Below, one piece after another: positions 1-60,835 of a stretch of DNA of 64,000 nt; position 1 is the first letter of the stretch; every line of letters begins with the position of its first letter. The notes below the pieces were generated by a model. It saw only the letters and a program-made list of their open reading frames with translations. It had not been told where the DNA came from and ran no database searches. The position numbers were made by a program, and so were the translations under genes. The stretch is from contig NZ_JAHOOZ010000001.1 of assembly GCF_019075875.1 (NCBI RefSeq), positions 2,480,001-2,544,000 of the forward strand, written 5' to 3'. Source of the DNA: Novosphingobium sp. G106. GTDB taxonomy: Bacteria > Pseudomonadota > Alphaproteobacteria > Sphingomonadales > Sphingomonadaceae.

Positions 1-20
1 GAATAAGGACATCGACGTTC

Positions 21-43826: not shown

Positions 43827-43848
43827 CTACTAAACACATGTTTAGTAG
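43827..43848. promoter_or_regulatory. TetR operator between TauD operon and tetR1
   Basis: Perfect 10-base arms CTACTAAACA and TGTTTAGTAG with a 2-base centre, placed between divergent genes. The TetR encoded at 43927 is the likely ligand-controlled repressor of both sides. Confidence 0.75.
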
Positions 43849-43926
43849 TGTGTGCCATTGTCGTCAACGGCAGCGTCCTGCATGGCGTGCCATGGCGCCG
43901 CATCGCGCGCGGGAGGAAACGGGTCA

Positions 43927-44508
43927 GTGAACAAGCCCAAGCGGATCCGGCGCGATCCCGAGACGACACGAACGCTCATCCTCGACGCGACCGAACGGCT
44001 GATGGTGGACGAAGGCTATGCCGCCGTCACCTCGCGCCGCGTCGCGCAGGAAGTCGGCATCAACGGAGCGACAGTCCACTATTACTATCCCGCCACAGAT
44101 GATCTCTTCATCGCCCTTCACAAGCGGATGACCGAGCGGCAGTTGGCGGAGTTCGAGCAGGTCATGACAGCGGAAGATCCGCTTGCCGCGCTCTGGACCT
44201 TTCAGTCGGGGTGGACCCAGTCAGCTCTTGGAGTTGAGTTCCTCGCTCTGGCTAACCACCGCAAGAGCATCCGTGACGTCCTTGCCGGCACGACCGACGA
44301 AGCTCGCGATGCCCAGACTCAAGCCCTCGCCCGCGTCTCAAGCCAATCGGTGATCGATCCCGAAATCCTTCCGCCAATTGCTCTGACCACGATCCTCGTG
44401 GCGATCGCCAGGACACTGGCGAATGAGGAGCGCGTCGGGATTACGCGCGGTCACGAGGAAGTTCGAACCTTCGTCAAATGGGCTTTGGCCAACCTTCGGC
44501 GACCTTAA
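43927..44508 (+). CDS. TetR family regulator (tetR1)
   Basis: 193 residues. N-terminal HTH: TLILDATERLMVDEGYAAVTSRRVAQEVGINGATVHYYY, then a helical ligand domain. The GTG at 43927 with GGGAGGAA 9 bases upstream was preferred to an ATG-type start further up. Divergent from the TauD operon. Confidence 0.88.
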   Translation: MNKPKRIRRDPETTRTLILDATERLMVDEGYAAVTSRRVAQEVGINGATVHYYYPATDDLFIALHKRMTERQLAEFEQVMTAEDPLAALWTFQSGWTQSALGVEFLALANHRKSIRDVLAGTTDEARDAQTQALARVSSQSVIDPEILPPIALTTILVAIARTLANEERVGITRGHEEVRTFVKWALANLRRP

Positions 44509-45202: not shown

Positions 45203-45784
45203 TTAGCCCGCTGAGATTTTGCCAGTCACTTGGAGACTGTCAAGCATCTGCTCGACGACGGCGCGTGTTTCCGCATGCCCCTGATCGCGACCCAAGCCCG
45301 TCTCAGCAGCGAGTCCGTGTGCGATCCCCTGGATGATGATTGCGATGACCTCGGCTGGGAGGACCAAAGTCACGCCTCTCTCCCGGAAGTGGCGCTCTAT
45401 CGCCTTGACCTGCATCTCTCGAAAGGCATCCATATATTTTCGTACTTCAGCCGCGATGGTCGGTTCATGGCCTGCCAAGACCGTGAAGGCAGTCGCCGTG
45501 GCGCTTGCGTCCGGCTCCTCCTCCCAAAGGACGCGCAGTGGATCGCCTATCGCAAACGCGGCCTCAAGCCGAGCGAGGCCGGTATCGCCATAGTGCCGTA
45601 CCACGGCGAGTAGCAGTTCTTGTGTCGTGCGAAAATAATAAGGCACGATCTGACGGCTCATCCCGACAAGGTCGGCAACACGACGCGCCGTGACGGCCGC
45701 GTAGCCTTCGGTTCGGATGACCTTCACGGCCGCCTCGATCAGCAGCGTTCTGCTTTCTTCAGCCAGGCGACGCGATTTCACCAT
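45203..45784 (-). CDS. TetR family regulator (tetR2)
   Basis: 193 residues; HTH in LLIEAAVKVIRTEGYAAVTARRVADLVGMSRQIVPYYF. Start ATG at 45784 with GTAGGA just upstream. Divergent from the P450 gene at 45899, with palindromic sites between them. Confidence 0.88.
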   Translation of the reverse strand: MVKSRRLAEESRTLLIEAAVKVIRTEGYAAVTARRVADLVGMSRQIVPYYFRTTQELLLAVVRHYGDTGLARLEAAFAIGDPLRVLWEEEPDASATATAFTVLAGHEPTIAAEVRKYMDAFREMQVKAIERHFRERGVTLVLPAEVIAIIIQGIAHGLAAETGLGRDQGHAETRAVVEQMLDSLQVTGKISAG

Positions 45785-45822
45785 TCCTACAATCCTGCCT
45801 CTCGCAACGGCCGAACAACTAA

Positions 45823-45867
45823 CTAGCACAGTTGACAGCCCATCCAGTTAGCTAGCACATGTGCTAG
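45823..45867. promoter_or_regulatory. TetR operator region between tetR2 and P450
   Basis: A perfect 16-base palindrome CTAGCACATGTGCTAG (45852-45867) and a half-site CTAGCAC (45823-45829) 30 bases away. The centre CACATG resembles the tetR1 operator, suggesting related regulators. Overlaps the expected promoters of both genes. Confidence 0.7.
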
Positions 45868-45898: not shown

Positions 45899-47131
45899 AT
45901 GAAAGAAGTAAGCCCGCCTCTGACCCTGCTGTCGCCAGAAGCGATGGCTTGTCCCTTCGATACATATGACGCCATGCGGGCCGAGAGCGCAGCTTACAAA
46001 GACGCGTTCACCGGCTTCTACGTCGTCACACGGTATGACGATCTGCGCGCAGTGATGACCAACCCCGAGACCTTCTCCAGCAAGGTTGACGGCTTGGCAG
46101 CGCGGTCGAGCATACAGGAGGAACTGGACCGCATGTATGCGGACGCCGGGCTTGCGCTTGCAGAAGTCATCGTGGGTGTCGATCCCCCAGTCCACCGCCG
46201 TCATCGCTCGCTCGTCGACAAGGTTTTCAGCCCCCGCCGGGTACGTGAGGCTGAGCCTGGAATTGCGGCCCTGATCGACAGTCTCGTCGCCCGGTTCCCG
46301 TCCGGCCCTTTTGACTTCCACGATCAGTTCGCTCTGCCGTTGCCGATGTGGATTATCGCTGATCAACTTGGCCTGCCCCAAGACCGCAAGGAAGACTTCA
46401 AGCGTTGGTCGGATGCAAGCGTCAACCTCGTCAACCAGGGCCGCAGCAACGAGCAGGAGATTGCCGATGCCAGGGCGGTGATCGAGATGCGCCGCTACTT
46501 CATCGAGCAGGTGGCAAGGGTAAGGTCGTCACCCAATGCATCGCTTCTGAGCGCGCTAGCCAACACTGAGAACGACGGTGGCGAACTGATGACGCCCAAC
46601 GAGCTAAGCCTTCTTTTCCAAGTGCTGCTCGCGGCGGGAAATGAGACGACCACGCACGCCACCGGTTCGGCGATGTATCGCCTGACGCAGGACAGCGACC
46701 TTCAGGATCACCTTCGCGCAGAACCAGCGCTGATACCGGCGTTCATTGAGGAAGTCCTTCGGCTCGATGCACCCCTGCAGGGTCTTTTCCGCATCGCCCG
46801 CAAGGCTGCGAAGATTGGCGATGTTGAAATACCCGAAGGTGCGATCATCAATGTCCGCTTCGGCGCGGGCAATCGCGACGCCGCTCAGTTCGCCTGTCCG
46901 TCAGAGGTTGACCTCGATCGCGGCAGGCCAAGCCATATGACCTTTGGCTACGGCATCCATCATTGCATCGGCAGTCAGCTCGCCCGGGCAGAGTTACGTC
47001 TCGCCTTCGAGCGTCTGCTCGGCGGATCGAAGGCGATCACGCTCGCCGATGTGCCCGATGCCTACGTGGTGCCGCCGCACTTCGTGGCCCGAGGCCCTCG
47101 TCGCCTAATGGTGGAGTTTCAACCAGCATGA
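45899..47131 (+). CDS. cytochrome P450 (P450-1)
   Basis: 410 residues. I-helix LLAAGNETTTHA, K-helix EEVLRLDAP (ExxR), haem loop FGYGIHHCIGSQLAR. Class I soluble bacterial P450; needs a ferredoxin and reductase, which are not in this window. The next gene's ATG overlaps its stop (ATGA). Confidence 0.94.
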   Translation: MKEVSPPLTLLSPEAMACPFDTYDAMRAESAAYKDAFTGFYVVTRYDDLRAVMTNPETFSSKVDGLAARSSIQEELDRMYADAGLALAEVIVGVDPPVHRRHRSLVDKVFSPRRVREAEPGIAALIDSLVARFPSGPFDFHDQFALPLPMWIIADQLGLPQDRKEDFKRWSDASVNLVNQGRSNEQEIADARAVIEMRRYFIEQVARVRSSPNASLLSALANTENDGGELMTPNELSLLFQVLLAAGNETTTHATGSAMYRLTQDSDLQDHLRAEPALIPAFIEEVLRLDAPLQGLFRIARKAAKIGDVEIPEGAIINVRFGAGNRDAAQFACPSEVDLDRGRPSHMTFGYGIHHCIGSQLARAELRLAFERLLGGSKAITLADVPDAYVVPPHFVARGPRRLMVEFQPA

Positions 47132-49983: not shown

Positions 49984-50838
49984 TTACGCCGCTGGTGCAA
50001 AAAGCGTGGCGTTGTGCAGATCCTCACCCACGCTGTCGGCAGGATACTGCTCTTTGTATGTGAAGCGCGTGCAGGTGACGCGCTGCAATGTACGGGCACC
50101 GACGCCGGCCTGACCTCGGGCATGCTGGACGGACAGGTTGTCCCATACGACCAGGTCTCCGGGCCGCCAGGCGTGATCGTAAATCGCATCTTCTGCATAG
50201 AGATAGGCGAACAGCTCTTCGAGCAGCGCGTCGCTGTCGGCCGCGGACAGGCCGATGATGCAGGCGGTCATATTTTCGTTGACGAACAGATAGGGGCGGC
50301 CGGTCCCTTCCTGCGCGCGCACCACAGGATGCACGGTGCAAAGATCGCCAGCTTCAAGATCGCCGAGCCGATTGGCTCGTTCAGAGACGCGTTGGCGGAC
50401 TTGGAGCGCCTTCATACCTTCCACGCGCGCCTTCAGCCGATCGGGCAAGCTCTCGTAAGCTCGGTAGCCGCTGACAAAACGCGTCGACGCTGCATCGGGA
50501 TCGACATCGAGGGCATGCAGCGCTGCGACCAGATAGGGCGATGGCAGGTATGGCACGTCGTTGTGCCATTGCAGTTCCTTGGTGCCGAGAAAGCCGTCCG
50601 CCCGCGTATTGGAGACGTACAAGTTCTCATAAGGGCTGTCAGGCACGGGACCGAACGCACCGCACATCGCGCGCTGCTCTTCCATCGTGAGGTTCAAGCC
50701 GCGTGCGACGAGCAGGCCATCGCGCATGTACAATCGCGCGATCTGGGTTTGATCCGCGTCGCTTGGCGATGCCCGAAATGCTAGCTCAGCCTCCACGCCG
50801 AAGGGCTCGATCGGACGTGTGCTCAACACCTGGGTCAT
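49984..50838 (-). CDS. TauD/TfdA family dioxygenase (TauD-2)
   Basis: 284 residues. His-x-Asp in ELQWHNDVPY, distal His in SVQHARGQAG, and the 2-oxoglutarate Arg in LQRVTCTRF. Start ATG at 50838 after GGAGAGAG. First gene of the operon; divergent from tetR3. Confidence 0.9.
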   Translation of the reverse strand: MTQVLSTRPIEPFGVEAELAFRASPSDADQTQIARLYMRDGLLVARGLNLTMEEQRAMCGAFGPVPDSPYENLYVSNTRADGFLGTKELQWHNDVPYLPSPYLVAALHALDVDPDAASTRFVSGYRAYESLPDRLKARVEGMKALQVRQRVSERANRLGDLEAGDLCTVHPVVRAQEGTGRPYLFVNENMTACIIGLSAADSDALLEELFAYLYAEDAIYDHAWRPGDLVVWDNLSVQHARGQAGVGARTLQRVTCTRFTYKEQYPADSVGEDLHNATLFAPAA

Positions 50839-50966
50839 CAATCTCTCTCCGACTTCGGCGTTTGCCGCCGCCTGTTCCTCAACTTGATAGCAAACGGCGT
50901 GCGCTTGTCAAAGTGCGTTCTTTGCCGGCAAGAAGCGGAGCTCGAATTCGCTGAGAAAGGATCAGA

Positions 50967-51539
50967 ATGACCGGCAGGCGCATGGGGCCGCCCGACGCCT
51001 CGATACGGTTCAAACTGCTCGATGCGAGCGAGCGGGTAATTGCGCGCGACGGCTATCCGGCGGTGACCTCGCGCAGCGTAGGCGCCGAGGCCGGCGTCGA
51101 CCAGAAGCTCGTCTACTATTACTTCCGTAACATGGAGGAACTCGTCGTCGCGACCTTCCAACGCCGCAGCGAGACGTTCCTGGCTAGGCTCGCAGAGTTG
51201 GCGGTGGCGCAATCCCCGGTGAAAACCTTCTGGGAACTGAGCAGTCACCGCAGCGGTAGGCTGATGATCGAATTCATGGCCATGGCCACGCATACGCCGA
51301 CACTTCGCGAGGAGGTCGCGCGCTACAGCGAGGAAGCGACCGGGATAGTGGAAACGATGCTGGCCAACCATCTTTCGAATGCCCGGCCGGAGAGCGCTAC
51401 GTTCTCACCGGCATTTACGAGCTTCCTTGTCGCCTCGCTCGCGCGAAATTTCATACTCGAATCTGAGCTTAAGCTTTTGCGGAATCCGCATGAGATCGAG
51501 CAATCGATTGAAGCACTTTTGGATGTTCTTTGTCGCTGA
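50967..51539 (+). CDS. TetR family regulator (tetR3)
   Basis: 190 residues; HTH in FKLLDASERVIARDGYPAVTSRSVGAEAGVDQKLVYYYF. AAAGGA before the ATG. The 128-base divergent gap with TauD-2 contains CAAAGTGCGTTCTTTG, a weak inverted repeat that could be its site; it is less convincing than the other operators. Confidence 0.88.
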   Translation: MTGRRMGPPDASIRFKLLDASERVIARDGYPAVTSRSVGAEAGVDQKLVYYYFRNMEELVVATFQRRSETFLARLAELAVAQSPVKTFWELSSHRSGRLMIEFMAMATHTPTLREEVARYSEEATGIVETMLANHLSNARPESATFSPAFTSFLVASLARNFILESELKLLRNPHEIEQSIEALLDVLCR

Positions 51540-51602: not shown

Positions 51603-52415
51603 TCAGGCCGCGATGCCCCCATCCACCGGAAGCGTGCTGCCGGTCATGAACATGGCCATGTCCGAGGCGCAGAACAGGATCACGCGGGCGACGTCGTCCG
51701 CCGTCCCGACGCGGCCGAGACGGCTCGTGTCGATCCCCGGGATGCCGATCGCCTTGAGCTGCTCGGCCGGCATATCGGCAAGGAAGGCGGTCTTTTCGGT
51801 CAGGCAGACCCCGGGCGCGATGCCCATCACGCGGATGTCGTGCTTGCCCAGCTCGATCGCCATCTGCTTGGTCAGACCGACAACGCCATGCTTGGCGGCG
51901 ACATAGGCCGCCTGGCCGGCCGAGATGCCGAGCAGACCGGCGAGCGAAGCGACGTTGACGATCGTACCGCCCCGCCCCGCTTCGACCATACGCCGTGCCG
52001 CCTCGCGCGCGCCGACAAAGGTGCCCTTGAGCGTGATGGCGACTACCTTGTCGAACTCTTCTTCGGACAGGTCGAAAAGGGGGACCGAAGAAGGCAGGCC
52101 CGCGTTGTTCACCCAGATATCGATCGAGCCGAGCTCGCGCACGGCGGTGTCCACGAGACCGATTATCGAGGCGCTGTCGCCAGCATCGGAATGAGCGGAA
52201 ATTACGCGCGCGCCGGTCTTCTCGGCGATCTCGGCGGCTGTTGCGGCAGCTTTTTCGGTATCGATGTCACCGATCAGGACAGAGGCGCCGGCTTCTGCCA
52301 GCCGGAAGGCAGTCGCCCTCCCCAGTCCCCAGGCCGCACCGGTAATGACGGCGTTGCGCCCCTTGAGCGAGATCAGATCCGACAGCGCTTGCGCCGAGAC
52401 GTCACGAACAGCCAT
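51603..52415 (-). CDS. SDR family NAD(P)-dependent oxidoreductase (SDR2)
   Basis: 270 residues: VITGAAWGLGRATAF, WVNNAGLPSS, VNVASLAGLLG, catalytic YVAAKHGVVG. Acts on an alcohol or ketone made by the P450 just upstream (inference). Two-base gap to P450-2 on the same strand means one operon. Confidence 0.92.
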   Translation of the reverse strand: MAVRDVSAQALSDLISLKGRNAVITGAAWGLGRATAFRLAEAGASVLIGDIDTEKAAATAAEIAEKTGARVISAHSDAGDSASIIGLVDTAVRELGSIDIWVNNAGLPSSVPLFDLSEEEFDKVVAITLKGTFVGAREAARRMVEAGRGGTIVNVASLAGLLGISAGQAAYVAAKHGVVGLTKQMAIELGKHDIRVMGIAPGVCLTEKTAFLADMPAEQLKAIGIPGIDTSRLGRVGTADDVARVILFCASDMAMFMTGSTLPVDGGIAA

Positions 52416-52417
52416 CT

Positions 52418-53956
52418 TTATGCCTCCAGATTAGCGAGGTCGGCGTCGACGGCGTCGAGCGCTTCGCTGGTGAACTGGTCGGGCGCAAAGGCCTGGACCG
52501 CGCGCAGGGTCATACCTTTCGCCATGCCGATCTGCGGATTCTCGCTCATGCCGGGGAAGTGCTTCTCGAGTACGGCCTTGGCGGCATCATCGGCGAGCAG
52601 GTCGCCGATACGGCTGGATGCGGTAGACCAGGCCTTGGCAGCGGCCGGGGCGGCTTCCTGCTTTACGGGGGCAACGAAGCCTTCGGCCGGGGTCAGCTTG
52701 ATGTGCATCCTGTCGAGCCCGCGAATGATGAAACTCGGCTCGTAGTTGAGATCGGAAATTCCGCCCGGATGCTTATCGAGGTCGAGTTCGATCTTCGAGG
52801 TCATCTCCAGGAACTTCTCCATGATGACACGCACTTCGACACGCGCGAGCGGCGCACCGGCACAGACGTGCTTGCCGCGGCCGAAACCGACGTGCTCCGC
52901 TACCTTCTTGCGACCGATGACGAGTTCGTTGGGATCGTCCCACCGCTTGGGATCGCGATTGGCTGCGGACAGCGCGACGAGGATCTTGGTGCCGGCGGGA
53001 ATCTCCACATCACCGATCTTCGTGTCCTTGCGGGCGAGGCGTGCGGTCTGCTTGGTCGAGCCTTCGATGCGCAGCACTTCCTCGAGGAAGGCCGAAATCA
53101 GCTTGGGCTCGGCGCGGAGGCGGCTCTGCAGTTCCTGGTCCTCGACCAGGTATTTCATGGAGTTGCCGAGCAGCTTGGCCGAGGTGTCCTGGCCGGCGCC
53201 GAACATGAACATGCCGAGCTGAACCAGGTCGTAGAGCTCGGGCGTGGAGCCATCATTGTACTTGGCGTGGGCGAACTCGGTCAGGATGTCCTGCTGCGGG
53301 TTCGCACGGCGGTCGGCGAGATAGCCGTAGAAGTAGGTCCCCATCACCGCGAACGGATGTTCCGCGCCACCCGACATCGGATCGGTGCCGTCGAGTGCGC
53401 CCGGAACCGGCCCCTTGGCGATGGCGTCCATGAAAATCTGGCGGTCCGCCATCGGCACGCCGAGCAGATCGGCAACCACCATCGTGACGAAGGGCGTGGC
53501 GATCTTGCCGATGAGCTCGACGCCGCCATCAGCGACGGCACTGCCGACCATCTCGTCGCAGTAGACCTCGATGAACTCTTCGCTGGCCTTGAGGCGCGAG
53601 GGTAAGAACAGCGTATTGATGAAGGCGCGCAGCTTGGTATGCGGCTCGTCATCCAGGTTGACGACCTGGTCGCCGCCGGCGAATTCGGTGCGGTGCGCCT
53701 CGATCTGGGCGGTGATGTCCGATCCGTGCGGCGTGAACGGCAGCGGTGCCGAGGCGCCTTGCAGGCCGATGATCGCCGAGAAGGCATCGTGGTCGCGCAG
53801 CACCTCCAGCGCCTCCTGGAAGCCCGTGACGATGTAATAGTCCTTGCCCGGCGGCCGGTAGATCGGCCCCTGCTCGCGGATCGCGTTGAAGAACGCGTAA
53901 GGGTCCTTCAGCACCTCATGGTCCGAGAAATAGTCGCGCTCGATCAGTGCCTGCAT
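52418..53956 (-). CDS. cytochrome P450 (P450-2) with extra C-terminal domain
   Basis: About 512 residues. P450 core: I-helix MFGAGQDTSAKLL, EEVLRIEGS, haem loop FGRGKHVCAGAPLAR. After about residue 430 a linker rich in Ala leads into about 70 extra residues (SSRIGDLLADDAAKAVLEKHF, then PGMSENPQIGMAKGMTLRAV and FAPDQFTSEALDAVDADL). This tail resembles helical C-terminal domains on other sphingomonad hydrolases and is not part of the P450 fold. The ATG at 53956 is chosen; the longer frame to 54085 crosses the operator and is rejected. Confidence 0.92.
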   Translation of the reverse strand: MQALIERDYFSDHEVLKDPYAFFNAIREQGPIYRPPGKDYYIVTGFQEALEVLRDHDAFSAIIGLQGASAPLPFTPHGSDITAQIEAHRTEFAGGDQVVNLDDEPHTKLRAFINTLFLPSRLKASEEFIEVYCDEMVGSAVADGGVELIGKIATPFVTMVVADLLGVPMADRQIFMDAIAKGPVPGALDGTDPMSGGAEHPFAVMGTYFYGYLADRRANPQQDILTEFAHAKYNDGSTPELYDLVQLGMFMFGAGQDTSAKLLGNSMKYLVEDQELQSRLRAEPKLISAFLEEVLRIEGSTKQTARLARKDTKIGDVEIPAGTKILVALSAANRDPKRWDDPNELVIGRKKVAEHVGFGRGKHVCAGAPLARVEVRVIMEKFLEMTSKIELDLDKHPGGISDLNYEPSFIIRGLDRMHIKLTPAEGFVAPVKQEAAPAAAKAWSTASSRIGDLLADDAAKAVLEKHFPGMSENPQIGMAKGMTLRAVQAFAPDQFTSEALDAVDADLANLEA

Positions 53957-54027
53957 GGCGGTCTCCAGTACGGGGTATCCCGCTCGATCTGCCCTGTCGG
54001 AACCCGCGGGCGACAGAGGAGCGCAAT

Positions 54028-54060
54028 CCCATTTATGCGATACAATGTCGCATAAATGGG
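54028..54060. promoter_or_regulatory. 13-bp inverted-repeat operator upstream of P450-2
   Basis: Perfect arms CCCATTTATGCGA and TCGCATAAATGGG with a 7-base centre (TACAATG), 72 bases before the P450-2 start. It overlaps plausible promoter hexamers. Its regulator is unknown; no other copy was seen in the window. Confidence 0.65.
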
Positions 54061-54087
54061 AGAGGCGTGCGACGTCAAGAGTCAAAG

Positions 54088-54102
54088 ACTACGTTTCGTA
54101 GT
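54088..54102. promoter_or_regulatory. shared TetR4-type operator, site 1
   Basis: ACTACG-TTT-CGTAGT, upstream of the P450-2/SDR2 operon. Same core (CTACG-N3-CGTAG) as sites at 57542 and 58275. The sugar-isomerase gene ends 200 bases away on the other side. Confidence 0.75.
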
Positions 54103-54307
54103 TTTATTATCCAAACGAGATGCGAGGACCGATCCAATCGGCGCCAGGTGCCAGGCCGCGGTAGAGGTGCATGGGTGCCAGCCGACATTAGCTCGCGTCG
54201 TTCCGTTCTGAGCTTCCGATATGTCGGCATCCAGCACCGCGACTGGTGCGGACACGGAGAGACGATTTGACGATCGGCGTTACCTAGAGCAACCGGGCCT
54301 TTCGCGC

Positions 54308-55270
54308 TCAACCTGCAATTTGCGAGAGATACGTGTAGGACCTGGCGACGGCATCGATCGGCTCGACAGCGGTTTGTGGCTCCTGCTCCACCAGAAAGTG
54401 CCTCGCGCCTGCATGGTAAGCAGCTGGCAAAATTCGCGTCCAGTCGAGCTTGCCGGAGCCGACAGCCGGCGAGCCCATAGCGATCCGGTAACCGCGCGGC
54501 TGACTATCGGCGATGTCCCTGACGTGAAGCAACTTGATCCGGCCGCTTGCGCCTTCGAGGAAGTGAACGGGATCCAGACCGGCGAGTTGAACCCAGCCGA
54601 TGTCGACTTCAAAGCCCACGAAATCCGGCTCCGTCTCGCGCCAGAGGATTTCCCAACCGGTCGTCTTTCCAATCGGAGCAAAGTCCAGGTTGTGGTTATG
54701 ATAGGCAACACCGATCCCGGACTGGCGAAGAGCATCCCCTTTTCGGTTCAGGGCCTCGGCGGTTTGTTTCCATATATCCTCGCCAGCGGCGGCGATGGTG
54801 CGAGCGATTGCCGCCTCGAGACTTTCGCCGCTCTGCGGCCGGAAATTGGAAGGGATCAGCAGAATTGGAGCAACTGCCCATTTTGCGCCCAAGGCTCCCA
54901 TCGCATCGACGATCCGCGAAGTATCGCTTGTCATTGAAAGCGCCGAGGGTCCGCCAATGGCCATGAGAGGAAGATGCAGGCTGCTGACAGAAAGACCTGC
55001 GCGAACAGCAGCTGCACCGATTTGGGCAGGCTGTAATCCGAAGAGATTGGTCAGCTCGATCTCCCGGTACCCGATTTCCGCGACCTTCCCCAAGATCGCG
55101 TCAATATCGCGGCTCGAGATAGTCCCAAGCGAACCGAGTTGCAGGCCCATCGGCTGAGCATGCCGCGCGAAAAACGCGCGCCGGGAACCTGCAAAGACGG
55201 GGTGCTCGAATAGTGCCAGCGCGCCAACCGTGCCAAGCCCCGCCATGAACGAACGTCGCTGCAGTCTCAT
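54308..55270 (-). CDS. sugar phosphate isomerase/epimerase-fold protein, exported
   Basis: 320 residues. Twin-arginine-like signal (QRRSFMAGLGTVGALALF), then a xylose-isomerase-type TIM barrel: GYREIELTNLFGL, VAYHNHNLDF, FEVDIGWVQLAG, KLLHVRD. Metal residues His/Glu/Asp are in place. Family members act on sugars or as lyases; here a glycoside-derived substrate is possible. Last gene of the operon from 57480. Confidence 0.85.
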   Translation of the reverse strand: MRLQRRSFMAGLGTVGALALFEHPVFAGSRRAFFARHAQPMGLQLGSLGTISSRDIDAILGKVAEIGYREIELTNLFGLQPAQIGAAAVRAGLSVSSLHLPLMAIGGPSALSMTSDTSRIVDAMGALGAKWAVAPILLIPSNFRPQSGESLEAAIARTIAAAGEDIWKQTAEALNRKGDALRQSGIGVAYHNHNLDFAPIGKTTGWEILWRETEPDFVGFEVDIGWVQLAGLDPVHFLEGASGRIKLLHVRDIADSQPRGYRIAMGSPAVGSGKLDWTRILPAAYHAGARHFLVEQEPQTAVEPIDAVARSYTYLSQIAG

Positions 55271-55391
55271 AGTGTTGCCTTTGATGGAATCGGATGTGTC
55301 TTATCGGCTGGGTTCAGGAGCGATCTGCGAGACGATCACGGCTCCGAAGTGACGCATCGACCGCAAGTGCCGACAGCCGGCGAGTTCGACG

Positions 55392-56363
55392 TCATGGTGC
55401 GATCCCTATGCCGTCGCCACCTTTGCCAACCGCCAGGCGCCTCAGGACCTGACCTGAGGCCAGATCAACCTCCGCAATGGTGCCGCGCCCGGTCTCGGCG
55501 ACGAGAACATGCCGCCCATCCCGCGTGAATGTGGCCGTCACCTGGACTGCGTCTCGCGCTCCGCTGACCGTGAACGTGCGCAGGAGTTTGCGGCTCGCGA
55601 CATCGAACACGCTCAAGGTCCCTGCGCCGATATTGGAGGTCACCGCTGTCCTGCCATCAGGACTGATCGCCACGCGGATGGCGACGGGCTCGGTGGCCAG
55701 CGTCTCGATCGTGCGGTCGCTGGCGAGATCGACGATGCGGACCCTCGGCGCCGAATTGTCGCCCACCCACAGCTCGCGGCCGTCGGGTGTGACGGCCAGC
55801 CCTTCAGGATTGCCGCCGACCGTAATGTCCCTGATCTTTTCCGCGCGCCGCAGGTCAATCACGCTGATCGTCCCCGCGCCGACATTCGCCACGTATCCAA
55901 AGCGTTGGTCCGGCGAAGCCGCGATCATGTGCGTTCCGGCTTGTTCGGTGGCGATGCTTTGCAGGGTGCCGCGCCGCGGATCGACGAGCACGATGCTCCG
56001 GCTCTTCTCCGCAGCAAGCGCGATTCGGCCGTCGCGCAGCCATACGATCCCGTGGGGCGCAGCGTTCGGCGACAGGTCGATGCGCCTCGTCAACCTGGCG
56101 GTCGAAACATCGAAGATATCGAGCGTCGTGCCACCATAAGCGGCAACGGCCGCCTGCTTTCCATTCGGCGAGACAGCGATTTCGTGCGGCGCCTTCCCCG
56201 TCGCTACGCGCGCCCGTTCATTCCCGCTTGCTAGATCGATGAAGCTGACAGTGTCTTCGCCCTTGTTCCCGACCAGCAACGTATCCGCCAAAGCGACCGG
56301 CGCTGCTGCCAGGAGACCAGCCAAAGCGTAAATGTACGCGAATGCTCGCCCGATGTTCTTCAT
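55392..56363 (-). CDS. YVTN-type beta-propeller protein, periplasmic
   Basis: 323 residues. Signal peptide ending AAAPVALA, then seven repeats of about 42 residues with motifs like TLLVGNKGEDTVSFIDLASG, NVGAGTISVIDLRRAEKI, and PDGRELWVGDN. No catalytic site is known for this family; it often accompanies quinoprotein or catabolic genes as a binding scaffold. The ATG at 56363 follows a 22-base gap from the hydrolase. Confidence 0.85.
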   Translation of the reverse strand: MKNIGRAFAYIYALAGLLAAAPVALADTLLVGNKGEDTVSFIDLASGNERARVATGKAPHEIAVSPNGKQAAVAAYGGTTLDIFDVSTARLTRRIDLSPNAAPHGIVWLRDGRIALAAEKSRSIVLVDPRRGTLQSIATEQAGTHMIAASPDQRFGYVANVGAGTISVIDLRRAEKIRDITVGGNPEGLAVTPDGRELWVGDNSAPRVRIVDLASDRTIETLATEPVAIRVAISPDGRTAVTSNIGAGTLSVFDVASRKLLRTFTVSGARDAVQVTATFTRDGRHVLVAETGRGTIAEVDLASGQVLRRLAVGKGGDGIGIAP

Positions 56364-56385
56364 CGGTACAGTCCCAGCCCAGCCG

Positions 56386-57480
56386 CTACTTGCCGAGCCG
56401 GTGGTCAAACCAGCTGGCGATATAACGCATGGCGTCCTGCGACTCTGGCGTTTCGGGCGCGGTGCTGTAGCTCTGATGCCAGCCACCTTCGATCATATAG
56501 AGTTCGGACCTTACCCCGCGCTTCAGGAGACTAGCATGGCCAACGACCACACCGCTCATTTCCGGCGCGCGCGTACCCGATAGCCAAAGCGTGGGCGGAT
56601 AGTCGGCCAAAATCTCCGGGGTAATTTCGGGAACGACATCCCTCCGGTCGTAGTCGTCGCCGAAGTAGCCGCCCCTGGCGACCAATGTAGTGCCGGGCCA
56701 GGCAAAGCCGCCGCTGAAATTCCAGATCGCCGAATCCCCAGTCGCGGTTTGAAAAGCGCAGGACAAGGGGGCGATGGCACCGGGCAGCGGAACGCCGTGC
56801 TTCTTGAACCAGGGGATCGATTGCAGCGTGATGACGCCGCCCGCCGATCCGCCGAATATCCCGACGTCACGCGCTGCGTGGGTCTTGAGTATCTCGCGGT
56901 AAACCGCAGTAAGGTCCTCAAGCGCAGCAGGATGCGTCGCCTCCGGATAGAGCCGGTAGTTGATGCTGATCACCTCGATCCCGCTGAGCGACGCGACGGG
57001 TATTGCATCGAGCATCGCGACGGATGGCCATCCGACCATGAACGAGCCGCCATGGACTTCGATCAGGATGCGTCTGCGGTTCTTGCTTGAGACACCGCCC
57101 CGAGGCCGAACACGGATGACTTCTACACCGGCAATAGTCTCTTGCGACATCTCGACGGGATAGCGCTCCCGGACGAAAGGAAGCGATCGTTCGAACATCG
57201 CGTTGACCACCGAACGCATCTTGGCAACGAGCCGCGGATCCTTGGGCGGCGTTATCGTGCCATTTCCCGGGCCGGCGAGCGATTGCGCGTAGGCGCGCTT
57301 CAAAGCGTCGCTGGCGAGCACGGAGGCTGGATAGGAGTAAGCCGGGATCTCAATCGCACCGAGGCTTGGCTTCGGCTTGACGGCGGGCGCCGGCTCTTCC
57401 CCCGCGACGGAGGAACTCGCCATCACTGCAAGGACTGCCAGGCCTGAGAGCGCCATCGACCGGATGCACGGTTTCACCAT
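56386..57480 (-). CDS. alpha/beta hydrolase (HSL-type), exported
   Basis: 364 residues. Signal segment MALSGLAVLAVMASSSVAG. Oxyanion HGGSFMVGW, nucleophile GGSAGG, His in EGGWHQSY. At the usual acid position the sequence reads SGTRAPEMSG, where relatives have GTRD, so the catalytic Asp looks replaced; another acid may serve. ATG at 57480 with GGGAGA upstream. First gene of an operon controlled by the operator at 57542. Confidence 0.87.
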   Translation of the reverse strand: MVKPCIRSMALSGLAVLAVMASSSVAGEEPAPAVKPKPSLGAIEIPAYSYPASVLASDALKRAYAQSLAGPGNGTITPPKDPRLVAKMRSVVNAMFERSLPFVRERYPVEMSQETIAGVEVIRVRPRGGVSSKNRRRILIEVHGGSFMVGWPSVAMLDAIPVASLSGIEVISINYRLYPEATHPAALEDLTAVYREILKTHAARDVGIFGGSAGGVITLQSIPWFKKHGVPLPGAIAPLSCAFQTATGDSAIWNFSGGFAWPGTTLVARGGYFGDDYDRRDVVPEITPEILADYPPTLWLSGTRAPEMSGVVVGHASLLKRGVRSELYMIEGGWHQSYSTAPETPESQDAMRYIASWFDHRLGK

Positions 57481-57541
57481 CGCCGTCTCCCACACGGCTT
57501 GGCTCGTCCCATGCGTTGCCAACTCGGCCGTGAGGAGTTTT

Positions 57542-57558
57542 AGCTACGCTCCGTAGCT
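57542..57558. promoter_or_regulatory. shared TetR4-type operator, site 2
   Basis: AGCTACG-CTC-CGTAGCT, perfect 7-base arms, 60 bases upstream of the hydrolase start and next to the end of tetR4. Confidence 0.78.
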
Positions 57559-57571
57559 TTTAGAGTCAATA

Positions 57572-58228
57572 TCACCAAGCCGCGGAACCCCGCATCAGCA
57601 AGTCGACGCAGCTTTCAGCGAACTCTTGAGCATCGATTTCTGGCGCTTTCGATGTCGGCGCGACGAATTCGATCCAACCACCCAGCATGGCCATGAGAGC
57701 GGTCGCAACCTTCTTTGGATCCCGCGCCTCGATCCCGCTCTCCGGTCCGAGCTCGCGAATATCGCTCTCCAGTTGGGTCATGATTTTCTCGTACCCGATC
57801 GCCTCGTGCCGCCCGCCAATTTCCTCCGAGCTGCTCCAAGCGGCTGACGCGAGCGCCCAGAATGCCTGGACTTCCGGTGTCGTCGCACGATGCAGGATCT
57901 TGGCAGCGATGCGCTTCAAGTGCTGTTCGAGACTCTCACCCGAAGTGATGGGCTGATCGACTTCGCCCCAGGCGGAAATACGATCGCCCAGGACAGCCCG
58001 GAGCAGGGAACGCTTGTCGGGATAGCGCTTGTAGAGCGTCGTCTTGGGCACGCCTGCCTGGGCTGCAACAGCTTCCATCGATGTGCGCTCGTAACCGGCC
58101 GACAGAAAAGACTGGGCCGCCGCGTCTCTGATCGCGCGCTCGATCGCCGCCGACTGAGTTGCACTAGGCCTTCCCCGCTTCGGCTCGAATGGCGCATCGA
58201 CTGCGATAGACTGCTTCAGATCTGGCAT
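57572..58228 (-). CDS. TetR family regulator (tetR4)
   Basis: 218 residues; HTH in AIRDAAAQSFLSAGYERTSM, EAVAAQAGVPKTTLYKRYPDKRS. It is flanked by two copies of the same palindrome, and a third lies at the P450-2 promoter, so it is the best candidate for their binding protein. Divergent from the CoA-transferase gene. Confidence 0.9.
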   Translation of the reverse strand: MPDLKQSIAVDAPFEPKRGRPSATQSAAIERAIRDAAAQSFLSAGYERTSMEAVAAQAGVPKTTLYKRYPDKRSLLRAVLGDRISAWGEVDQPITSGESLEQHLKRIAAKILHRATTPEVQAFWALASAAWSSSEEIGGRHEAIGYEKIMTQLESDIRELGPESGIEARDPKKVATALMAMLGGWIEFVAPTSKAPEIDAQEFAESCVDLLMRGSAAW

Positions 58229-58274
58229 TTGGTGAATACGGCCTTCAGCTTGACATCGCTTACTCGAAACTAAA

Positions 58275-58291
58275 AACTACGATGCGTTGTT
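58275..58291. promoter_or_regulatory. shared TetR4-type operator, site 3
   Basis: AACTACG-ATG-CGTTGTT, one mismatch in the arms, between tetR4 and the divergent CoA-transferase gene; would allow autoregulation. Confidence 0.7.
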
Positions 58292-58325: not shown

Positions 58326-59810
58326 ATGCGGGTGTCCACCCTCACCGAAAAGCTCGAATGGGCTCACCGCAACCCGCACTCTTCAGCGCAGTTCGATCTC
58401 ATGGCAGCGCTCGACGAGGTGCTGGCGCCGCTCGGCCTCTCGCAAGGCGATGCTGGCGGATCGATAGAATACTGGGGCGCCGATCCCGTCGTGAAGAGCC
58501 CGCTGCGTTTGGGAGCAGCGGCTTCGATCGGCCTCCTGGCCAAATCCATCGCGGCAGCGGCCATGCATCGCTGGCGTGGCGGCGCCGGGCAGGACATCTC
58601 GGTGGACCTGCGCAGGGCACCGCACCGGCTGAGCCCTTTCTATGATTTCCAGTGGGAACGTCTTGGCGGCTATCCGGTCCGATCGTCGCTCGAAGCCGGC
58701 AATATGATGAGTGCCATCTTCTATCGAACGGCCGATGGCCGCTTCGTCATGCCGCAGGCGCTCTATCCGAACCTGCGCCAGCGGGCGCAGGACCTGCTCG
58801 GCATTCCGCTGACCTGGCCTGCGATTACCGCGGCAATCGGCAAGTGGAATGGGCTCGAGTTGGAGGCAGCAGGCGAAGCCGCCGGGATCGTGATGCCCAT
58901 GGTTCGCACCCTTCCCGAGTTCCTGAAGGAGAAGCAGTATCGGAGCGCGCTTGCCGAGGCGCCGCTCATCGAGATCATAAAGATCGAGGATTCTGCTCGC
59001 GAGCCGCTGCAAGTGCCTGGCGATCAGCCGTTCTCGGGCTACCGCGCGCTCGGGATGGGCCATGTCATTGCGGGCGCCGGGCTTGGCCGATCGCTCGCGC
59101 TACATGGCGCGGATGTTCTGAACCTCTGGCGGCCAGGCGAAGCCGAGCAGGAGACCATTTATGCCTCATCCAACGTCGGGCTCCGCTCGGCATGGCTTGA
59201 CCCCCGCAACGATCGCGCTCGGCTCGGCGAATTGCTCGCGGGTGCCGACATCTTCTTCCACAATCGTCGACCCGCCTTCCTTCGCGAGATCGACCTTACG
59301 CCCGAAGCCGCGGCACGCGAGCGGCCCGGAATCATCTACGTATCGGTTTCGCTCCACGGCTTGACCGGCCCCTGGGCAAAGCGCCCCGGCTTCGATCAAT
59401 CCGCCGCCTGCGTAACCGGGATCATGGCCATGGAGGGTACCGCCGATCAGCCTCAGCTTCCGCCGATCGTGGTGATCAACGACTATCTCGCTTCCTGGCT
59501 AGCGCAGGCCGGCATCGTCGCCGCACTTCGCCGGCGTGCCGAAGAAGGCGGCTCCTATCATGTGCACGTATCGCTTTCGCGGATCGCCCTGTGGATCCTG
59601 TCGCTGGGTTTATTCGATCAGGACTGGGCGTACCGCACGGCAGGGAGTAGCGAGACGCACAGCTATCTCGACCCGGAAATCTTTCACGCGGAAACGCCCA
59701 TGGGAGACTATCAGGGCGTAAGCGAACAGGTGTCGATGTCTCTCACGCCCGGGCGCTACGATCCCGTCCTGGTCGCTCGCGGCTCGGGCAGAGCCGAATG
59801 GCTGAGCTAG
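58326..59810 (+). CDS. CaiB/BaiF family (class III) CoA-transferase
   Basis: 494 residues, longer than the usual 400. The N-terminal 220 residues (SIEYWGADPVVKSPLRLGAA, VDLRRAPHRLSPF) look like a partial second CaiB-type domain; the rest has YRALGMGHVIAGAGLGR, HGADVLNLWRPGE, FFHNRRPAFLREID, RPGIIYVSVSLHG and GFDQSAACVTGIM. Transfers CoA between acids to start beta-oxidation-like steps. ATG at 58326 with GGGAG upstream. The hydrolase at 59870 follows on the same strand. Confidence 0.87.
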   Translation: MRVSTLTEKLEWAHRNPHSSAQFDLMAALDEVLAPLGLSQGDAGGSIEYWGADPVVKSPLRLGAAASIGLLAKSIAAAAMHRWRGGAGQDISVDLRRAPHRLSPFYDFQWERLGGYPVRSSLEAGNMMSAIFYRTADGRFVMPQALYPNLRQRAQDLLGIPLTWPAITAAIGKWNGLELEAAGEAAGIVMPMVRTLPEFLKEKQYRSALAEAPLIEIIKIEDSAREPLQVPGDQPFSGYRALGMGHVIAGAGLGRSLALHGADVLNLWRPGEAEQETIYASSNVGLRSAWLDPRNDRARLGELLAGADIFFHNRRPAFLREIDLTPEAAARERPGIIYVSVSLHGLTGPWAKRPGFDQSAACVTGIMAMEGTADQPQLPPIVVINDYLASWLAQAGIVAALRRRAEEGGSYHVHVSLSRIALWILSLGLFDQDWAYRTAGSSETHSYLDPEIFHAETPMGDYQGVSEQVSMSLTPGRYDPVLVARGSGRAEWLS

Positions 59811-59869: not shown

Positions 59870-60835
59870 ATGCCGATCCTTCCTGCACTTCAACCGCTGT
59901 TCCGGACCATAGCGCAGCAAGGCGATGCCCCCTCTCGCAACCTACCTGTCCGCGAGGCTCGGGAACGCGCGCATGCCGCGATGGAACAATACATAACTGG
60001 ATACTACGCTTCTGTAGATCCACTTCCCATCGAGCGGGATCTCTGTGTTCCGGTCGATGGGGGCTTCATTACAGTGCGCCTGTACGCGCCAAGCGCCCGA
60101 CAGGGACCGCTGCCATGCCATGTCTATTATCATGGCGGCGGCTTTTGGCTGGGCAGGCTCAAGCACTTCGATCCCCTCTGCCGCGCGAGCGCTAGCGACG
60201 CGCAATGCGCCGTGGCCTCTGTAGACTATCGGCTGGCGCCCGAGTTCAAGTTTCCGACAGCTGCCGAAGACGCATACGCAGCCCTGCTCTGGCTTCATGA
60301 AAATGCCGGTGCGCTGAACCTCGATCCAACTCTTATGTCGGTAGGCGGCGTGAGCGCGGGCGGCAATTTGGCTGCGGTGGTTTGTTTGATGGCGCGTGAG
60401 CGGCTCGGACCACCTATTTTACTTCAAGTATTGGAAGTCCCGGTTCTCGACCTTTCAACTCAAAAGGACCTCCGAATACCCGAAGAAGCTATCACCCTAC
60501 CTTCCGGCAAAGATCTATATTGCGCTTACTACCTCGAGGACCCCGTAAAGGCCTTGCATCCCCATGTCTCACCCCTGCATGCGGCTAACCTGACGGCACT
60601 GCCACGGGCACTAATCATGATAGCCGAATACGATCCCCTTGCGGCAGAAGGCCGTGCTTACACCAAGCTTTTATCTGAGGCCGGAGTACCAACTGAACTT
60701 ATCGAATGGAAAGGCCAGTTCCACGGTGCGCAATCGATGGCTCGGTTGATACCGGATGAAGCATTTTCCTATCACACCAGAATTGTCGAATTTCTAAGAG
60801 AGAACCACGGGATCGCAAACGTTCGATTCGAATGA
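59870..60835 (+). CDS. alpha/beta hydrolase (HSL-type esterase)
   Basis: 321 residues, cytosolic. YYHGGGFWLGR oxyanion, GVSAGGNLA nucleophile, AEYDPLAAEG acid, GQFHGAQSM histidine: the full catalytic set. Carboxylesterase of the hormone-sensitive-lipase group. Likely co-transcribed with the CoA-transferase; may release the acid that is activated. Confidence 0.92.
   Translation: MPILPALQPLFRTIAQQGDAPSRNLPVREARERAHAAMEQYITGYYASVDPLPIERDLCVPVDGGFITVRLYAPSARQGPLPCHVYYHGGGFWLGRLKHFDPLCRASASDAQCAVASVDYRLAPEFKFPTAAEDAYAALLWLHENAGALNLDPTLMSVGGVSAGGNLAAVVCLMARERLGPPILLQVLEVPVLDLSTQKDLRIPEEAITLPSGKDLYCAYYLEDPVKALHPHVSPLHAANLTALPRALIMIAEYDPLAAEGRAYTKLLSEAGVPTELIEWKGQFHGAQSMARLIPDEAFSYHTRIVEFLRENHGIANVRFE

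Follow-up and report, generated by a model that had tools for sequence, protein, structure and literature searches.

Genes and presumed promoters of the cluster

The window, i.e., the whole 64,000-nucleotide stretch of Novosphingobium sp. G106 DNA analysed here, harbors a cluster of genes around tetR4, a regulator gene. The genes considered are as follows:

50967–51539, plus strand: TetR3, a TetR gene
51603–52415, minus strand: SDR2, a short-chain dehydrogenase, directly 3′ of P450-2
52418–53956, minus strand: P450-2, whose nearest solved relative by sequence is CYP150A6
52421–52633, minus strand: C-terminal module of P450-2, about 70 residues
54308–55270, minus strand: xylose-isomerase-like TIM-barrel protein (AP_endonuc_2)
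55392–56363, minus strand: YncE-like beta-propeller protein
56386–57480, minus strand: alpha/beta hydrolase (esterase); nearest NCBIfam family, the GCSAG hormone-sensitive-lipase subfamily, below cut-off
57572–58228, minus strand: tetR4, a TetR/AcrR-family regulator of 218 residues with a TetR_N match and a predicted TetR fold
58326–59810, plus strand: family III CoA-transferase
59870–60835, plus strand: second alpha/beta hydrolase (Abhydrolase_3), starting 59 bp 3′ of the CoA-transferase gene

P450-2 matches CYP150A6 with an E value of 3.6e-104, the next best solved structure reaching 1.3e-43; the likeness rests on the closest solved structure and not on formal CYP naming. The N-terminus of the esterase looks signal-peptide-like by eye, and the isomerase-like gene is separated from the beta-propeller gene by a 121-bp gap. 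TetR3 is convergent with SDR2 and divergent from a TauD-family dioxygenase gene (49984–50841, minus strand). Because the convergent TetR3 closes the P450-2/SDR2 operon, the dioxygenase gene beyond it probably forms a unit of its own. Two presumed promoters can be read from the sequence:

54073–54078, minus strand: putative −35 box of P450-2, TTGACG; the candidate −10 box, TTATGC (54050–54055), lies inside palindrome B (see below)
57541–57569, minus strand: putative esterase operon promoter, made up of TTGACT (57564–57569), a 17-bp spacer, and TAGCTA (57541–57546)

A consensus promoter scan of the cluster picked up none of the proposed promoters. By eye, TTGAC is similarly placed before palindrome B in most of the P450 ortholog sequences.

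The C-terminal module of P450-2 has no Pfam or NCBIfam match. It also makes up small proteins whose starts look like signal peptides and whose genes directly follow TetR4-clade genes; such a gene lies downstream on the same strand in 9 of 30 TetR4-homolog loci (E ≤ 1e-22; L018, L019, L063, L066, L067, L069, L080, L081, and L082) and the module also occurs at the plasmid loci L074 and L076. A distant TetR4 homolog (26%) in the G106 genome itself directly precedes a small module protein gene (L139, G000:C1:662844-663812). Altogether, 59 of 195 genus genomes encode the module (E ≤ 1e-6). Neither P450-2 nor the three small proteins scanned gave a Pfam match for it, and no PDB sequence match was convincing; its modeled fold bears a weak resemblance to the C-terminal part of GH3 beta-glucosidases.

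Two other regulators in the window have likely operators of their own. A palindrome with 10-bp arms, CTACTAAACACATGTTTAGTAG (43827–43848), lies between TetR1 (43852–44508, plus strand) and a TauD-family gene and is a likely TetR1 operator, while the perfect palindrome CTAGCACATGTGCTAG (45852–45867), between TetR2 (45203–45829, minus strand) and the divergent P450-1 (45899–47131, plus strand), is a likely TetR2 operator.

Distribution of the CTACG-N3-CGTAG motif

Three related palindromes (no strand assigned), all intergenic, lie in promoter regions of the cluster within 4.2 kb:

54089–54101: site 1, exact (CTACGTTTCGTAG), 10 bp 5′ of the −35 box presumed for P450-2/SDR2
57544–57556: site 2, exact (CTACGCTCCGTAG), lying between the presumed −35 and −10 boxes of the esterase operon promoter and covering part of the −10 box
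58277–58289: site 3, one mismatch (CTACGATGCGTTG), between the divergent tetR4 and CoA-transferase genes

On the minus strand, site 1 is followed by P450-2 and SDR2, and site 2 by the esterase, beta-propeller, and isomerase-like genes. The sequence-only reading had proposed one operator repeated at three promoters (54088, 57542, and 58275) and seen nowhere else. Its positions were off by 1–2 bases, and the repetition stands for two exact copies; the third departs from CTACG-N3-CGTAG by a single mismatch in the right arm and is not literally identical. Shuffled windows would be expected to contain 0.01 exact copies, compared with the two found. The rarity was borne out across the entire genome (7.23 Mb), in which the exact motif occurs at two places, sites 1 and 2, and has no unrelated copies, while a reversed control pattern occurs at 44.

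Allowing one mismatch, the core becomes common, with 121 places in the genome (reversed control, 842), so site 3 counts only through its flanks and position. All three sites share A/T-rich flanking arms, and the core plus these flanks was combined into an extended pattern, AAARCTACGNNNCGTAGYTTT. At up to two mismatches, it is found in the whole genome at exactly sites 1–3 (reversed control, 0), a uniqueness that is partly circular because the pattern was drawn from the same three sites; at up to three mismatches, one more place is added, for a total of four (reversed control, 11). The 194 other genus genomes hold eight places at up to two mismatches, in seven genomes and with a maximum of two per genome, and the reversed control gives 0–3 per genome across all 195. 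One candidate operator is thus present at all three promoters and absent elsewhere in the genome, with an imperfect third copy. That these palindromes are chance or structural repeats with no regulatory role is very improbable: the abundance of one-mismatch cores and the mismatch in site 3 would fit such an origin, but three intergenic sites within 4.2 kb stand against the eight extended-pattern places in 194 other genomes.

TetR4 as the candidate binder

TetR4 scores 51 bits against TetR_N (Pfam cut-off, 24). Its predicted fold (10 helices, mean pLDDT 87) is all-helical and two-domain, like those of solved TetR regulators, and the model matches 235 PDB chains at E ≤ 0.001, with the 50 listed being TetR-family or bacterial transcriptional regulators by title. 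The imperfect palindrome that precedes tetR4, site 3, has its center 55 bp upstream of the tetR4 start and 43 bp upstream of that of the CoA-transferase gene. This position between tetR4 and its divergent neighbor is the usual autoregulatory place, in keeping with the earlier assignment of a motif copy to tetR4 itself. The best single parallel comes from a 38% identical TetR protein (L066), which has AGCTACGCCAAGTAGCT just after its tetR gene, matching the place of site 2.

Within the recognition helix, an alignment of 53 sequences shows T64, Y66, and R68 to be invariant and K62, L65, and K67 to be at least 90% conserved. The relation of helix to operator was scored at 42 TetR4-related loci out of 69 matches, with duplicates and distant ones excluded; footprinting of operators used homologs at most 45% identical to TetR4 and left out relatives at 52–97%, most of which come from metagenome contigs. 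Using patterns picked by eye after viewing the same, mutually related loci, (i) ATCGNACG-N4-CGTNCGAT (up to two mismatches) accompanies SKGTLY helices at 11 of 19 loci and none of the 23 others (Fisher p 0.00002), (ii) TATACC-N3-GGTATA accompanies TKATLYQR helices at two of three loci and none of the 39 others (p 0.003), and (iii) the TetR4 motif accompanies P[KR]TT-YKR helices, the TetR4 type, at four of nine loci and one of the 33 others (p 0.005, window included). The last association weakens to p 0.019 once the near-identical L057 and L058 are merged and, with the window removed as well, to p 0.074 (2/7 vs 1/33); at five of the nine P[KR]TT loci, the best match to the TetR4 motif has three mismatches or more. 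Operator class therefore appears to follow the recognition helix clearly for the SKGTLY and TKATLYQR helices, while for the TetR4 class, given the p of 0.074 without the window, this line of evidence is suggestive only. The TATACC-N3-GGTATA sites make up a third operator class, which precedes the TetR4-clade genes whose helices read TKATLYQR (L059, L061, and L071); it has the 5-3-5 layout of the TetR4 motif and is clear in L059 and L071 but degenerate in L061.

TetR4 is the likely binder of sites 1–3. The sites could instead be bound by another regulator, be it TetR1, TetR2, or TetR3 of the window or one encoded elsewhere, with TetR4 having a different target. The annotated part of the window has four TetR genes, and the helix-motif link of the TetR4 class is weak without the window, both of which leave room for such a binder. 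Yet TetR1 and TetR2 each lie beside a palindrome of their own (43827–43848 and 45852–45867), site 3 lies right next to tetR4, and a comparable palindrome occupies the position of site 2 at the locus of a TetR4 homolog, making this alternative improbable.

A second palindrome at the P450-2 promoter

The P450-2 promoter carries a further palindrome that the sequence-only reading had missed:

54027–54061, no strand assigned: palindrome B, with 14-bp perfect arms and a 7-bp loop, overlapping the presumed P450-2 −10 box

Its sequence, TCCCATTTATGCGA-TACAATG-TCGCATAAATGGGA, makes it the longest-armed palindrome of the cluster. The core, TTATGCGA-N7-TCGCATAA, is exact at 54033–54055, and in its extended form this is the sole place in the genome at up to two mismatches, with one other at three. 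Palindrome B is a second candidate operator, and a stronger one than CTACG-N3-CGTAG.

Comparison with 15 promoters of related P450 genes (57–91% identical) from 14 genomes (L133 and L168 share one) places palindrome B at 14 of them with up to three mismatches and at 13 with up to two; L143 is devoid of it at the P450 promoter at the looser threshold. When each of the 14 promoters was shuffled 200 times with its composition kept, no shuffle matched at three mismatches or fewer. The TetR4 motif, at up to one mismatch, is found at none of the 15. In seven (L126, L127, L128, L130, L131, L137, and L143), a ferredoxin-like frame, recognized by eye, lies between the position of B and the P450 gene.

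Palindrome B is probably the site of TetR-B, the product of a TetR gene of another type than TetR4, with TetR_N above cut-off. Of the 14 loci bearing palindrome B, 12 encode it within the stretch retrieved. No TetR-B gene was matched in the window, and the G106 genome has an ortholog (68%) 2.76 Mb away (C1:5293521-5294168), where it adjoins a 77% paralog of P450-2, with a weaker B-like site (three mismatches) nearby. Counting against TetR-B, only 6 of the 17 aligned TetR-B starts checked have palindrome B (up to three mismatches) no farther than 300 bases off or just inside them. At L124, L126, and L151, the palindrome is spanned by the aligned TetR-B frame, making the true start uncertain.

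The membership of the P450-2/SDR2 operon in the TetR4 regulon, as originally proposed, stands in part: the operon has an exact site 1 upstream, but sole control by TetR4 is not evident, because its presumed −10 box lies under a different and far more conserved palindrome and related P450 promoters carry B and not the TetR4 motif. The operon probably answers to two regulators, and its TetR4 site looks newer than palindrome B. A narrower alternative limits the TetR4 regulon to sites 2 and 3, leaves P450-2/SDR2 to TetR-B acting through palindrome B, and assigns little effect to site 1. This would agree with the conservation of B at 14 of 15 P450 promoters, with the lack of the TetR4 motif at all 15, and with a site 1 that does not overlap the presumed core promoter. 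Site 1 is, however, exact, has matching flanks, and has only one other exact counterpart in the genome; we regard the narrower regulon as a serious but unlikely alternative.

Gene company in relatives and a possible change of control

CoA-transferase relatives are rare, occurring in 3 of the 194 other genus genomes (E ≤ 1e-60). In G427, P450-2 (59%) is divergent from an esterase–CoA-transferase pair (64% and 69%), and in G303, P450-2 (65%) is divergent from the CoA-transferase gene alone (69%). G308 has P450-2 (67%), the isomerase (57%), the propeller (65%), and the esterase (68%) on one contig. This co-location in different combinations in three genomes is independent of the motif and argues for P450-2, the esterase, the CoA-transferase, the isomerase, and the propeller belonging to one pathway, thereby strengthening the corresponding proposal of the sequence-only reading.

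Palindrome B is present in the shared or upstream regions of these relatives, with one mismatch in G427, two in G303, and two at the G308 esterase gene. Within the window, by contrast, palindrome B is missing from the promoters of the esterase and CoA-transferase genes (best match, seven mismatches), which have the TetR4 motif, while the P450-2 promoter has both. With B at the relatives' esterase and CoA-transferase genes and the TetR4 motif here, the most economical explanation is that control passed from B to the TetR4 motif in a swap still unfinished at P450-2. Its direction is suggested by the distribution of the two motifs, and its esterase/CoA-transferase part draws on the three other genomes. 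Tentatively, at somewhat less than even odds, the gene set has moved from palindrome B to TetR4 operators and is caught mid-change of master regulator, with the old and new operators at the P450-2/SDR2 promoter forming a two-input gate that responds to two ligands.

Proposed regulatory scheme

The favored reading, to which we assign a probability of roughly 0.7, is that TetR4 is a local repressor of the three operons through sites 1–3, with TetR-B as a second input at P450-2/SDR2 and a swap of control between the two. A TetR4 dimer would bind the 13-bp palindrome CTACG-N3-CGTAG with its A/T-rich flanks. At site 2, it would cover the spacer and part of the −10 box and block RNA polymerase at the esterase-propeller-isomerase promoter; binding to site 3 would silence tetR4 itself together with the CoA-transferase-hydrolase operon. 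Site 1 would place it just upstream of the P450-2/SDR2 −35 box, a position less sure to give repression. GATAAT immediately precedes site 1, which would matter most if transcription began just 3′ of it. Release of TetR4 by a metabolite of the pathway would induce all three operons, and P450-2/SDR2 would need both repressors lifted, the second being TetR-B, encoded elsewhere in the genome and acting on palindrome B.

If this scheme is true, it would provide (i) a defined repressor and its operator from a sphingomonad, with three promoters ready for use as reporters, (ii) an uncharacterized P450/esterase/CoA-transferase pathway grouped as one functional unit, and (iii) a natural test case for the passing of promoters between repressors. 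The helix-to-operator classes of the TetR4 clade would, in turn, aid operator prediction for uncharacterized Novosphingobium and Sphingobium regulators.

Comparison with known systems

Bioinformatic prediction of regulator-operator pairs is already established (Snowprint, PMC10858194), and the kind of repressor-operator pair described here is itself known; of interest to the specialist are the two-operator promoter and the apparent swap.

Four regulators of the same clade (L018, L019, L066, and L074; 36–38% identity) resemble TetR4 in having a palindrome directly after tetR. All but L066 differ in operator class and recognition helix, and the neighbor of all four is a gene for a small protein with a signal-peptide-like start, unlike the catabolic operon next to tetR4. 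The TetR-B/palindrome B systems at CYP150-like P450 genes (S. yanoikuyae pKN1, L089; G320, L124; G346, L132) share with the window a related P450 with the C-terminal module and palindrome B; L124, L132, and L137 also keep the same SDR2 after the P450. The L089, L124, and L132 systems differ from the window in having TetR-B beside the P450 and no TetR4 motif.

The closest described case found for TetR4 is EdcR of Caenibius tardaugens, a TetR repressor of the estrogen edc cluster acting at several promoters; its proposed operator, TnnCnnTACnAnTnGTAnnGnnA, overlaps −10 boxes, weaker autoregulation is proposed, and an edcR deletion mutant has been constructed and studied (PMC8700777). EdcR and TetR4 are alike, at the family level, in being sphingomonad TetR-type regulators of a catabolic cluster whose proposed operators share the TAC-N5-GTA core and spacing, and unlike in their operator flanks.
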